Of a stretch of DNA of 64,000 nucleotides, positions 23,205 to 26,853 are shown one piece after another. Position 1 is the first letter of the stretch; each line of letters opens with the position of its first letter. The notes beneath the pieces were generated by a model. That model searched no databases. It worked only from the letters and a program-made list of their open reading frames with translations, and was not told the origin of the DNA. The stretch is from contig NZ_JACPOF010000015.1 of the NCBI RefSeq assembly GCF_016185115.1, forward strand, positions 124,001 through 188,000. Reading direction: 5' to 3'. Position numbers and translations under genes: made by a program. Origin of the DNA: Polaromonas sp. Its GTDB lineage: Bacteria; Pseudomonadota; Gammaproteobacteria; Burkholderiales; Burkholderiaceae_C.

Positions 23205-24740
23205 ATGACCTCACTCCGCTCTTCCCCGGCCTCAAAACTCAACGCTTCCACGACGTCTTCCACGGTCAGGCCGACCGCAGCGTCAACGTCCGAACGGCTG
23301 GAGATTGCGCAAAACCTGCTGCTCAAGCCCTTTGGCCTGACAGAAGCGCATTTGAGCCGGGCACTTGGCGAAATCACCTCCCACGGCGCGGACGATGCGG
23401 ACCTTTATTTCCAGTACACCCGCAGCGAAGGCTGGAGCCTTGAAGAAGGCATTGTCAAGACCGGTTCGTTCAGCATTGACCAGGGTGTGGGTGTGCGCGC
23501 GGTGAGCGGCGAAAAAACCGCCTTTGCCTATTCCGACGATATTTCCGACGCATCTCTGCTCGACGCCGCCCGCACCGTGCGCAGCATCGCCGCCGCCAGC
23601 AAATCTGCCCGTGTGAAGACGCCGGGCCGCAAGGTGGCCAGCAGCCGCTCGCTCTACCAGGACCTGGACCCGATTGCCACGCTGGACAGCACGGCCAAGG
23701 TCAAGCTGCTGGAAAAAGTTGAAAAACTCGCCAAGGCCAAAGACCCGCGCATCGTGCAGGTGATGGCCGGGCTGGCCAGTGAATACGACGTCGTCATGGT
23801 CGCGCGCGCAGACGGGACGCTGGCCGCCGATGTGCGCCCGCTGGTGCGCCTGAGCGTGACGGTGATTGCCGAGAAAAAGGTAGGCGGCGAGGTACGCCGC
23901 GAGATGGGTTCTGGCGGCGGCGGTGGCCGTTTCGGCCTGGCCTATTTCGACGACGAGCAGATCGGCCAGTACGTGGCCGATGCCGTCAAGGCGGCATTGA
24001 CCAACCTCGAAGCGCGCCCTGCACCGGCAGGCGAGATGACGGTGGTGCTTGGTTCCGGCTGGCCCGGTATTTTGTTGCACGAAGCGATTGGCCACGGGCT
24101 TGAAGGCGACTTCAACCGCAAGGGCTCCAGCGCATTTGCCGGCAAGATCGGCCAGCGCGTCGCGGCCAAGGGCGTGACAGTGCTGGACGACGGCACGATT
24201 GCCGACCGCCGCGGTTCGCTCAACGTTGATGACGAAGGCAATGCCAGCCAGCGCAATGTGCTGATCGAGGACGGCATTTTGAAGGGCTACATCCAGGACT
24301 CGCTCAATGCGCGCCTGATGAAGGTCAAGCCGACTGGCAACGGCCGCCGCGAAAGCTACGCCCATGTGCCCATGCCGCGCATGACCAACACCTACATGCT
24401 GGGCGGCGACAAGGCGCCTGAAGAAATCGTTGCCAGCATCAAGAAGGGCCTGTACGCCACCAATTTCGGCGGTGGTCAGGTCGACATCACCTCGGGCAAG
24501 TTTGTGTTCTCGGCCAGCGAGGCCTTCTGGGTCGAAAACGGCAAGATTCTTTATCCGGTCAAGGGCGCAACGATTGTCGGCAACGGCCCGGATGCACTGA
24601 CCCGCGTGACCATGATGGGCAACGACATGCAGCTCGACAGCGGTGTCGGCACCTGCGGCAAGGAAGGCCAGAGCGTGCCTGTGGGCGTCGGCCAGCCGAC
24701 CCTGCGCATTGATGGCCTGACCGTGGGCGGCACGGCCTGA
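23205..24740 (+). CDS. tldD: TldD, metalloprotease subunit
   Basis: TldD forms with TldE (PmbA) a cytoplasmic zinc protease that degrades unfolded peptides and matures some ribosomal peptides. The 511-residue product has the defining HEAIGHGLEGD (HExxxH zinc motif) at about residues 291-301, VRAVSGEKTAFAYSD in the N-terminal domain, and a C-terminal DSGVGTCGKEGQSVPVGVGQP. The first 30 residues are Ser/Thr-rich and not conserved; the true start could be later, but no better codon with a ribosome site is visible. pmbA is not in the window. The transcript appears to end in the large palindrome just downstream. Confidence 0.95.
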   Translation: MTSLRSSPASKLNASTTSSTVRPTAASTSERLEIAQNLLLKPFGLTEAHLSRALGEITSHGADDADLYFQYTRSEGWSLEEGIVKTGSFSIDQGVGVRAVSGEKTAFAYSDDISDASLLDAARTVRSIAAASKSARVKTPGRKVASSRSLYQDLDPIATLDSTAKVKLLEKVEKLAKAKDPRIVQVMAGLASEYDVVMVARADGTLAADVRPLVRLSVTVIAEKKVGGEVRREMGSGGGGGRFGLAYFDDEQIGQYVADAVKAALTNLEARPAPAGEMTVVLGSGWPGILLHEAIGHGLEGDFNRKGSSAFAGKIGQRVAAKGVTVLDDGTIADRRGSLNVDDEGNASQRNVLIEDGILKGYIQDSLNARLMKVKPTGNGRRESYAHVPMPRMTNTYMLGGDKAPEEIVASIKKGLYATNFGGGQVDITSGKFVFSASEAFWVENGKILYPVKGATIVGNGPDALTRVTMMGNDMQLDSGVGTCGKEGQSVPVGVGQPTLRIDGLTVGGTA

Positions 24741-24741
24741 T

Positions 24742-24842
24742 TGCCGTTTCCAGATCAGGCGTGCACTTTGTCGGCTCGCCTTGCCGTGCTGTAGCACTGT
24801 CTGCGGCGGGCCTTCGCGTTCACACCTGATCTGAAAACGGCA
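24742..24842. repeat. Long imperfect palindrome after tldD
   Basis: The outer arms, TGCCGTTTCCAGATCAGG (24742-24759) and CCTGATCTGAAAACGGCA (24825-24842), are reverse complements with one mismatch, and the match continues further inward. An inner hairpin, GTGCT-GT-AGCAC (24786-24797), stands near the centre. The element resembles intergenic palindromic repeats and may act as the tldD terminator, insulating it from the aroG promoter that follows at once. Confidence 0.65.
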
Positions 24843-24850
24843 GAGGTATT

Positions 24851-24879
24851 TTGGGCCCCATTTCAAGCTGTGCTACATT
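24851..24879 (+). promoter_or_regulatory. Candidate sigma-70 promoter for the aroG leader
   Basis: TTGGGC (24851-24856), a 17-base spacer, then TACATT (24874-24879) preceded by TG as an extended -10. The predicted start falls at about 24886, next to the leader-peptide ATG at 24887, so the leader peptide would be translated from a leaderless 5' end. Confidence 0.5.
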
Positions 24880-24886
24880 TCAGCTT

Positions 24887-24961
24887 ATGCACTCCGCAAC
24901 GTTTTATTTTGGTTACTTTTGGTTCTCAACCGCCTCCGGCCGTCGAGAGACTTTCGCGTAA
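24887..24961 (+). CDS. Aromatic-rich leader peptide of aroG (attenuator)
   Basis: This 24-codon frame begins ATG at 24887 and ends TAA at 24959-24961. Codons 6-13 read FYFGYFWF: four Phe, two Tyr and one Trp among eight codons. It is followed after 25 bases by a perfect intrinsic terminator and then by the gene of the first enzyme of aromatic amino acid synthesis. By analogy with the trp and phe leaders, ribosome stalling at these codons under aromatic shortage should favour read-through into aroG. The reading is inference, but sequence, position and pathway agree. I know of no named homologue for it. Confidence 0.8.
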   Translation: MHSATFYFGYFWFSTASGRRETFA

Positions 24962-24998
24962 CCTCAAAAAACGCAACAAGATTCTCAAAACCGCCGGA
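24935..24998 (+). promoter_or_regulatory. Candidate antiterminator pairing in the aroG leader
   Basis: TCCGGCCGT at 24935-24943, inside the end of the leader-peptide frame, can pair with ACCGCCGGA at 24990-24998 in 8 of 9 positions. The second segment is the left arm of the terminator, so the two structures exclude each other, as required for attenuation. Confidence 0.5.
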
Positions 24999-25017
24999 CC
25001 CCCGGCGGTTTTTTTTT
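24987..25017 (+). terminator. Intrinsic terminator (attenuator) before aroG
   Basis: AACCGCCGG (24989-24997), loop ACCC, CCGGCGGTT (25002-25010), then an unbroken T-run through 25017. It lies 69 bases before the aroG ATG, within its leader, so it must be conditionally bypassed for aroG to be expressed. Confidence 0.85.
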
Positions 25018-25085
25018 GCCCGGTTTCAAATCGTTTTTACTGTTTAGTCATTGAAGTTTCAGGAAATCAAAGAAGGAAGATTGCG

Positions 25086-26760: not shown

Positions 26761-26798
26761 TTCGGGTTTTGAGCCTGTCCAGACCGTCAAAACACCAA

Positions 26799-26853
26799 AA
26801 TGTTAAGTTGCAGGTTAACATTTTGGCGATTTGTTAACTTGCAACTTAACATT
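26799..26853. terminator. Perfect-like long hairpin at the 3' end of mpl
   Basis: The arms at 26799-26820 and 26832-26853 are 22 bases each with one mismatch and each contain GTTAAGTTGCA or its complement; the loop is 11 bases. It lies 8 bases beyond the mpl stop on the minus strand and also downstream of the 103-residue gene on the plus strand, so it may end both transcripts. T-runs are short, hence terminator function is inferred. Confidence 0.55.

Follow-up and report, generated by a model that had tools for sequence, protein, structure and literature searches.

A predicted leader-peptide attenuator ahead of the DAHP synthase gene aroG in Polaromonas and many other Burkholderiales

Genes and features at the aroG locus

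In the window analyzed here, a 64,000-nucleotide stretch of Polaromonas sp. DNA considered at its full length, aroG is separated from tldD by a gap of 345 bases that holds the predicted regulatory features (Table 1). The aroG product scores 532.1 bits against NCBIfam TIGR00034, exceeding the cut-off of 173.2, and 538.6 bits against NF006723 (AroG), under the cut-off of 568; among known structures, it matches a Phe-sensitive DAHP synthase, PDB chain 5cks_A, at E = 2.4e-136. The assembly to which the window belongs is 96% complete and contains one AroG-type gene, and no type II DAHP synthase was found in it. A second PF00793 match in this assembly is 297 amino acids long and is presumably KdsA.

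Table 1. Features of the tldD-aroG region, in window positions.
Feature	Position	Strand	Basis or remark
tldD, just upstream of aroG	23205-24740	same as aroG	
Predicted promoter, weak -35 and extended -10	24851-24879	+	sequence; recurrence in relatives
Weak -35, TTGGGC	24851-24856	+	17-nt spacer to the -10
Extended -10, TG-C-TACATT (TGCTACATT)	24871-24879	+	sequence; recurs in relatives
Predicted transcription start, on the A of the leader ATG or 1 nt ahead of it	24886-24887	+	predicted from the gap to the -10 and the absence of a Shine-Dalgarno sequence
Leader peptide ORF, 24 codons, MHSATFYFGYFWFSTASGRRETFA	24887-24961	+	translation; comparison; codon-position rates
Control codons 6-13, Phe Tyr Phe Gly Tyr Phe Trp Phe	24902-24925	+	sequence
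Predicted 1:2 hairpin	24911-24963	+	MFE and centroid fold of the window leader
Antiterminator segment (region 2), TCCGGCCGTCGAGAG	24935-24949	+	within the leader frame; GGCGG conserved in relatives
Region 3, TTCTCAAAACCGCCGGA	24982-24998	+	antiterminator when paired with region 2, terminator when paired with the right arm
Intrinsic terminator, T run to 25017	24987-25017	+	sequence; terminator scan
Shine-Dalgarno-like AAGGAAG of aroG	25073-25079	+	sequence
aroG, type I DAHP synthase, 381 aa	25086-26231	+	TIGR00034; PDB match

Two sets of repeats flank these features. A 25-nt inverted repeat (24742-24766 and 24818-24842, 88% complementary, 51 nt apart) sits between the tldD stop codon and the leader promoter, and overlapping inverted repeats (one of 22 nt, 95% complementary, and one of 19 nt, 89% complementary) lie at 26788-26853, in the gap beyond a small frame downstream of aroG.

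Leader frame, terminator, and alternative pairings

A preliminary description of this DNA had pointed to a 24-codon frame with seven aromatic residues in codons 6 to 13, and translation confirms both counts and coordinates. The frame runs from the ATG at 24887 to the TAA at 24959-24961, its control codons specify 4 Phe, 2 Tyr, and 1 Trp, and codon 23 (Phe) is an eighth aromatic codon. It is the sole ATG frame of 10 to 60 codons with at least 7 F/Y/W per 10 codons on either strand of the 64 kb. The leader scan chooses the most aromatic frame; in a control that applies the scan to dinucleotide shuffles of the window's own tldD-aroG gap, seven aromatics were reached in 1 of 2,000 shuffles and six or more in 8 of 2,000. 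The leader RNA (24887-25020), a stretch that includes the terminator, has a predicted folding energy of -42.9 kcal/mol, versus -28.95 ± 3.77 kcal/mol for shuffled sequences, none of which (0 of 200) was as stable.

The terminator, called perfect in the preliminary description, was found again both in the sequence and by a terminator scan, with an 11-bp stem (24987-24997 paired with 25002-25012), the loop ACCC, and a T run. The scan alone expects 0.8 such matches by chance in a 700-base stretch, and the case therefore rests on conservation. The alternative pairing proposed between 24935-24943 and the left arm of the terminator was likewise verified, as eight of the nine positions facing 24990-24998 pair and only C24941 opposes C24992. 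A further antiterminator helix of 5 bp, absent from the preliminary description, can form between GAGAG at 24945-24949 and TTCTC at 24982-24986. In the predicted 1:2 hairpin, GGTTAC (24911-24916) pairs with GTAACC (24958-24963) and the TTCTC region with GAGA, and an inner stem forms around CCGCC..GGCCG. Similar 1:2 hairpins were seen by eye in many individual folds of relatives among those listed.

The core of region 2 in the window is GGCCG rather than GGCGG, which produces the C x C mismatch at 24941 in the antiterminator; the two congeners inspected carry the normal GGCGG core, unlike the window. Codon 15 of the leader in the window has changed from AGC to ACC (24930), which, judged by eye, may offset the 24941 mismatch in the 1:2 hairpin.

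Promoter and predicted leaderless start

The evidence for the candidate promoter ahead of the leader is mixed. A simple sigma-70 scan matched no promoter upstream of the leader, but the extended -10 recurs in relatives. The leader ATG follows the end of a TANANT box by 6 to 8 nt in 55 of 84 loci (L079, with too little upstream DNA, was left out of the promoter and Shine-Dalgarno counts), and 52 of these 55 boxes have the TG extension. By comparison, single-base shuffles of the 45 upstream bases yielded TANANT, within a wider range of 4 to 10 nt, in 190 of 8,400 cases. The commonest -10 form, GTGCTACATT, occurs in 34 loci and is also that of the window, where the gap to the leader ATG is 7 nt.

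A Shine-Dalgarno-like 4-mer precedes the leader ATG in only 1 of 84 loci, versus 77 of 84 at the aroG start (a generous count, as this start was sought across 180 bases). Because the -10 lies 6 to 8 nt before the ATG and Shine-Dalgarno sequences are almost lacking there, the leader mRNA is probably leaderless, its RNA starting at or beside the leader ATG. In Burkholderia- and Massilia-type loci the TANANT box, where found, ends 25 to 39 nt upstream, still without a Shine-Dalgarno sequence. Seven loci from outside the class were inspected by eye: TATAT is present in five and a weaker TACAAG in one, ending 6 to 7 nt before the ATG. An attenuator RNA beginning at the leader ATG is described for Sinorhizobium meliloti trpL in the available part of PMC7298713, and several leaders of Streptomyces lividans are reported as leaderless in that of PMC8079986.

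Distribution among relatives

We compared 110 AroG-like loci, 80 from named genomes and 30 from the same genome and its relatives, the window being one of them (L081); the loci are not independent, near-identical species pairs being included (L018/L055 and L070/L071). With at least five aromatic codons in 10 as the threshold, an aromatic leader was called before aroG in 86 loci, or 85 of 110, window included, after dropping the spurious L059, and a terminator-like stem follows the leader in all 85. Leader and terminator are thus conserved in relatives, contrary to the outcome that the preliminary description had held to speak against attenuation. Carriers include Polaromonas, Variovorax, Ramlibacter, Acidovorax, Hydrogenophaga, Comamonas, Roseateles, Rubrivivax, Massilia, Janthinobacterium, Paraburkholderia, Caballeronia, Burkholderia, and one Cupriavidus (L076).

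The leader scan left 24 of the 110 loci without a leader, counting as a miss L013, which has no upstream DNA. Among these loci are three Polynucleobacter genomes, two other Cupriavidus copies, Thauera, Azoarcus, and second-type paralogues. The leader does not mark all DAHP synthase isozymes, as it is absent from the three second-type paralogues inspected, which have about 55% identity (L107, L109, and L110). Three loci without a leader, two from Polynucleobacter and one similar to them (L026, L028, and L067), have only tens of bases between tldD and aroG, and a TAAAAT box seen by eye sits just ahead of the aroG ATG, an arrangement that would suit a leaderless aroG. One locus missed by the scan, L022 from Comamonadaceae, was later recovered by the covariance model (1320-1447, 73 bits): its leader has diverged to MRTTVRYHFWHFHIQHLTGAGVANA, in which several His codons are mixed with the aromatic ones, but its terminator is retained.

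That model was built from an alignment of 82 of the 85 leaders, without L071 (near-duplicate of L070) and the divergent L078 and L105. In the genome of origin it gives one full-length match, and 11 others are partial and lie at its terminator end. Within the family, 241 of 250 genomes match, the own genome included, as do 219 of the 224 of good quality; these are counts of model matches, irrespective of the downstream gene. In the order, 81 of 300 genomes match over the full length at E <= 1e-5, the larger tally of 131 at E = 0.01 taking in terminator-only pieces. The class search covered 274 genomes, at least three of them from the family, and two genomes of other orders match at full length and E <= 1e-5; in the phylum, 33 of 299 genomes match at E <= 1e-5, of which 15, in three families, lie outside the class. 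Searches over more than 40 genomes use stricter filters, so that weak matches are lost. An AroG-like frame follows the terminator in all 10 loci fetched from beyond the order (7 of the 15 from outside the class and 3 within it), with 54 to 63% identity and leaders such as MITVATSYFWYFSYDSLLAAGGSRSI. All 32 strong model loci for which DNA was available likewise have AroG downstream.

In two loci of the order (L145 and L147), the AroG-like coding stretch is directly adjoined by another that the end of the locus truncates, which suggests tandem isozymes behind one attenuator.

Codon constraint and RNA constraint in the leader

The two halves of the leader frame are conserved in different ways. 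Among 23 aligned leaders, pairwise difference rates at codon positions 1, 2, and 3 are 0.10, 0.12, and 0.27 in codons 6 to 13 and 0.26, 0.23, and 0.27 in codons 14 to 24. Since third positions differ more than first and second positions in the former, codons 6 to 13 are constrained as codons and their amino acid sequence is kept. The 3' half of the frame is constrained as RNA. Of the 85 leaders, 82 contain the antiterminator core GGCGG, partner of CCGCC in the terminator. Its reading frame varies (frame 0 in 44 leaders, frame 2 in 36, and frame 1 in 2), so that different peptides carry the same RNA motif.

Pairs beside the core were tabulated for these 82 leaders; L078, the window, and L097 lack an exact GGCGG and fall outside the tables, and where a leader has more than one GGCGG the best-extending copy was taken, which favors pairing. 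Beside the core, the terminator has a GC pair in 57 of the 82, an AU pair in 23, and a UA pair in 2, with both sides changed in 25. The leader base facing this position matches the arm base in 69 (61 Watson-Crick and 8 G-U pairs). At the other flank, nearer the 5' end of the terminator arm, regions 2 and 3 pair in only 33 of 82 loci. This flank is G-C in the predicted antiterminator of six of the seven extra-class loci, and by eye the leader base there is unpaired with the arm in the three loci of the class outside the order.

Predicted duplexes of region 2 with region 3 have energies of -16.8 to -22.8 kcal/mol in the seven extra-class loci. Across the compared leader loci, the mean is -17.9 kcal/mol for real pairs versus -16.3 kcal/mol for swapped partners, own pairs being at least as stable in 4,568 of 7,140 comparisons, and shuffled leaders did as well as real ones in 76 of 1,700 cases. 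RNAalifold on the full alignment recovered only the terminator. Comparison of leader, terminator, and pairing in relatives, which the preliminary description had called for, thus bears it out in that the three occur together before aroG, but covariation between regions 2 and 3, although real, is modest because the core is invariant.

Control codons ending in U are strongly favored in the 85 loci relative to aroG: TTT makes up 0.65 versus 0.21 of Phe codons, and TAT 0.45 versus 0.18 of Tyr codons. Possible causes are RNA structure and a slower decoding by wobble.

Predicted fold switch

We folded the transcript up to region 3, before the right arm of the terminator exists, with a ribosome masked at set codons. 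With the ribosome on the middle control codon, the probability that region 3 is paired to the leader averages 0.96 and exceeds 0.5 in 83 of 85 loci; when the downstream leader is shuffled under the same stall, the mean is 0.47, with 212 of 425 folds above 0.5. With no ribosome, the mean is 0.49, with 39 of 85 loci above 0.5. Over the ribosome-free RNA, the stall gains more than 0.2 in 52 loci and no more than 0.2 in the other 33 of the 85, and in the window region 3 pairing is 0.79 when stalled versus 0.12 without a ribosome.

A ribosome parked on the stop codon gives a mean antiterminator pairing of 0.68 to 0.37, depending on the footprint assumed (0.72 to 0.48 in the window). Region 3 is then not clearly free, so that the fed state probably needs release of the ribosome and re-formation of the 1:2 hairpin. 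As modeled here, this fed state is the weakest step of the mechanism and is not settled by equilibrium folds.

Proposed mechanism and alternative explanations

Taken together, leader, terminator, and alternative pairing, found jointly in many relatives, point to the ribosome-mediated attenuation of a DAHP synthase gene first put forward in the preliminary description, and we consider it highly probable that aroG is under such a leader-peptide transcription attenuator. We infer the transcription start, the translation of the leader, the response to starvation, and the amino acids that count from sequence. Transcription would probably start at or next to the leader ATG, and ribosomes would load on the leaderless 5' end. 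A shortage of charged Phe-, Tyr-, or Trp-tRNA would stall the ribosome in codons 6 to 13, where it would cover region 1 and leave region 2 free to pair with the emerging region 3; the terminator would be blocked and RNA polymerase would read into aroG. When charged tRNA is ample, the ribosome would reach the stop codon and leave, the 1:2 hairpin would re-form, region 3 would pair with region 4, and transcription would stop near 25017.

The claim that the leader reads all three aromatic amino acids at once is on weaker ground. Every one of the 85 control windows has Phe, 83 have Tyr, and 66 have Trp, with means of 4.2, 1.8, and 0.8 codons per control window; all three occur together in 64, but Trp is missing from 19. 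There is a real chance, which we put somewhat below even, that the effective signal of this same attenuator is Phe, perhaps Phe and Tyr, and that the single Trp codon is incidental. The dominance of Phe codons favors this reading, as do the Trp-less control windows, which include those of the Massilia/Rugamonas/Janthinobacterium type. It is also favored by aroR-aroF of Corynebacterium glutamicum, which in the available part of PMC11802643 is described as responding to limitation of Phe and not of Tyr, so that codon presence does not prove a signal. On the other hand, 21 of the 23 aligned close leaders retain Trp12, some Trp-less control windows have Tyr or Phe in the place of Trp when judged by eye, and L027 has a Trp just outside the counted control window. 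Moreover, DAHP synthase feeds all three amino acids and is encoded by one AroG-type gene here; with this single gene and no type II enzyme found, a single sensor for three products would fit.

Other explanations fare much worse. The leader is short, aromatic, and placed before a terminator, as would also suit a nascent peptide that arrests the ribosome on sensing a free metabolite (as in TnaC) instead of slow decoding. Arrest peptides generally need fixed residues; here, however, the number, order, and spacing of the aromatics differ by lineage, the residues between them are variable, and codons 14 to 24 have no codon-position pattern, which makes this explanation very unlikely. Even less probable is that the terminator ends the tldD transcript, that the frame is fortuitous, and that aroG has a promoter further down: tldD does lie just upstream on the same strand and the generic scan passes no promoter, but frame, core, and terminator recur jointly across the order and beyond, with a recurrent -10 ahead of the leader. 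A metabolite riboswitch or T-box in place of a translated leader, which the structured 5' region and terminator would allow, is the least credible reading, as the codon-position pattern is that of coding constraint and the best permissive Rfam match is to a peptide leader, Phe_leader, at 31.4 bits against a cut-off of 55.

At gathering score, no Rfam riboswitch or T-box was found in the window, where a tRNA was the only match, and no Rfam family at all in 14 relative loci. We also considered whether the released leader is the Burkholderia small RNA BcKCsr7 (RF02884) and rejected this: the match in the window is weak (20.6 bits), and neither the 14 relative loci at gathering score (six of Burkholderia type) nor five loci searched at E up to 0.5 (two of that type) gave a match.

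Comparison with known leaders

The peptide-leader architecture proposed for aroG resembles that of Escherichia coli pheL-pheA, represented in Rfam by Phe_leader (RF01859); pheA belongs to the Phe branch and not to the common pathway. The weak Phe_leader match in the window spans 24886-25017, below the gathering score, and no match to this family was found at E up to 0.5 in five relative loci; it fits a shared architecture, not membership. The ilv and thr leaders show that one leader can carry codons for several end products. Unlike the window leader, they serve the branched-chain or Thr/Ile pathways and not the aromatic pathway.

The closest parallels precede other DAHP synthase genes. Credit for the attenuator of C. 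glutamicum aroR-aroF reportedly goes to Neshat et al. (2014). In the available parts of PMC11802643 and PMC4046766, it is described as a leader peptide with Phe-Tyr-Phe that acts by ribosome-stalling attenuation before a DAHP synthase gene. The window likewise has FYF at codons 6 to 8 and a TIGR00034 gene downstream. The comparison is one of descriptions; the C. glutamicum system, in contrast to the window, is actinobacterial, and the available text mentions no Trp codon. The uORFC-13-1 motif of Acholeplasma, a uORF next to a terminator before the DAHP synthase gene aroF, is a proposed attenuator; according to the part of PMC8632094 available, its consensus, unlike the window leader, has a ribosome-binding site and encodes at least one Phe, and its 24 representatives come from Acholeplasma and environmental sequences only. 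S. meliloti trpL-trpE(G), a proteobacterial attenuator whose RNA begins at the leader ATG, resembles the element as predicted here; as described in the part of PMC7298713 available, it involves Trp only, and effects in trans are reported for the RNA and the peptide that it releases.

The preliminary description knew of no described attenuator of this type; with one known system in C. glutamicum and one proposed in Acholeplasma, leader attenuation of DAHP synthase is a known kind of regulation. Among the matches listed in the open-licence literature, none concerned an aroG attenuator of Burkholderiales or alphaproteobacteria, and no Rfam 15 family reached its threshold for the leader element. 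A genome-wide attenuator screen (PMC2965389), available in part, has gene lists that could contain the aroG considered here. Judged against Rfam 15 at gathering score and the open-access literature, what looks new is the presence of the element in Burkholderiales and outside that order, together with its Trp codon and its predicted leaderless start.

Implications for aromatic amino acid synthesis

In E. coli, the DAHP synthase isozymes are under isozyme-specific repression by TyrR and TrpR. We speculate, tentatively and with more doubt than belief, that the leader is an ancient proteobacterial OR-gate that replaces such repression in genomes with a single AroG-type DAHP synthase: lack of any one of Phe, Tyr, or Trp would stall the ribosome on the leaderless leader and open the common pathway, and the terminated RNA of about 130 nt, starting with ATG, may be a mini-mRNA or small RNA acting in trans, like the one reported for S. 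meliloti trpL.

If the attenuator operates as proposed, transcriptomes should contain short leader RNAs ahead of aroG, and the weighting of three amino acids by a single leader would become testable. A leaderless regulatory uORF present in many genomes would also provide a test bed for coupling without a Shine-Dalgarno sequence, and a native sensor for aromatic limitation would be at hand. The entry step of aromatic synthesis would then be switched at the RNA level in many Burkholderiales, Polaromonas, Variovorax, Hydrogenophaga, Massilia, and Paraburkholderia among them, and in some other proteobacterial groups.
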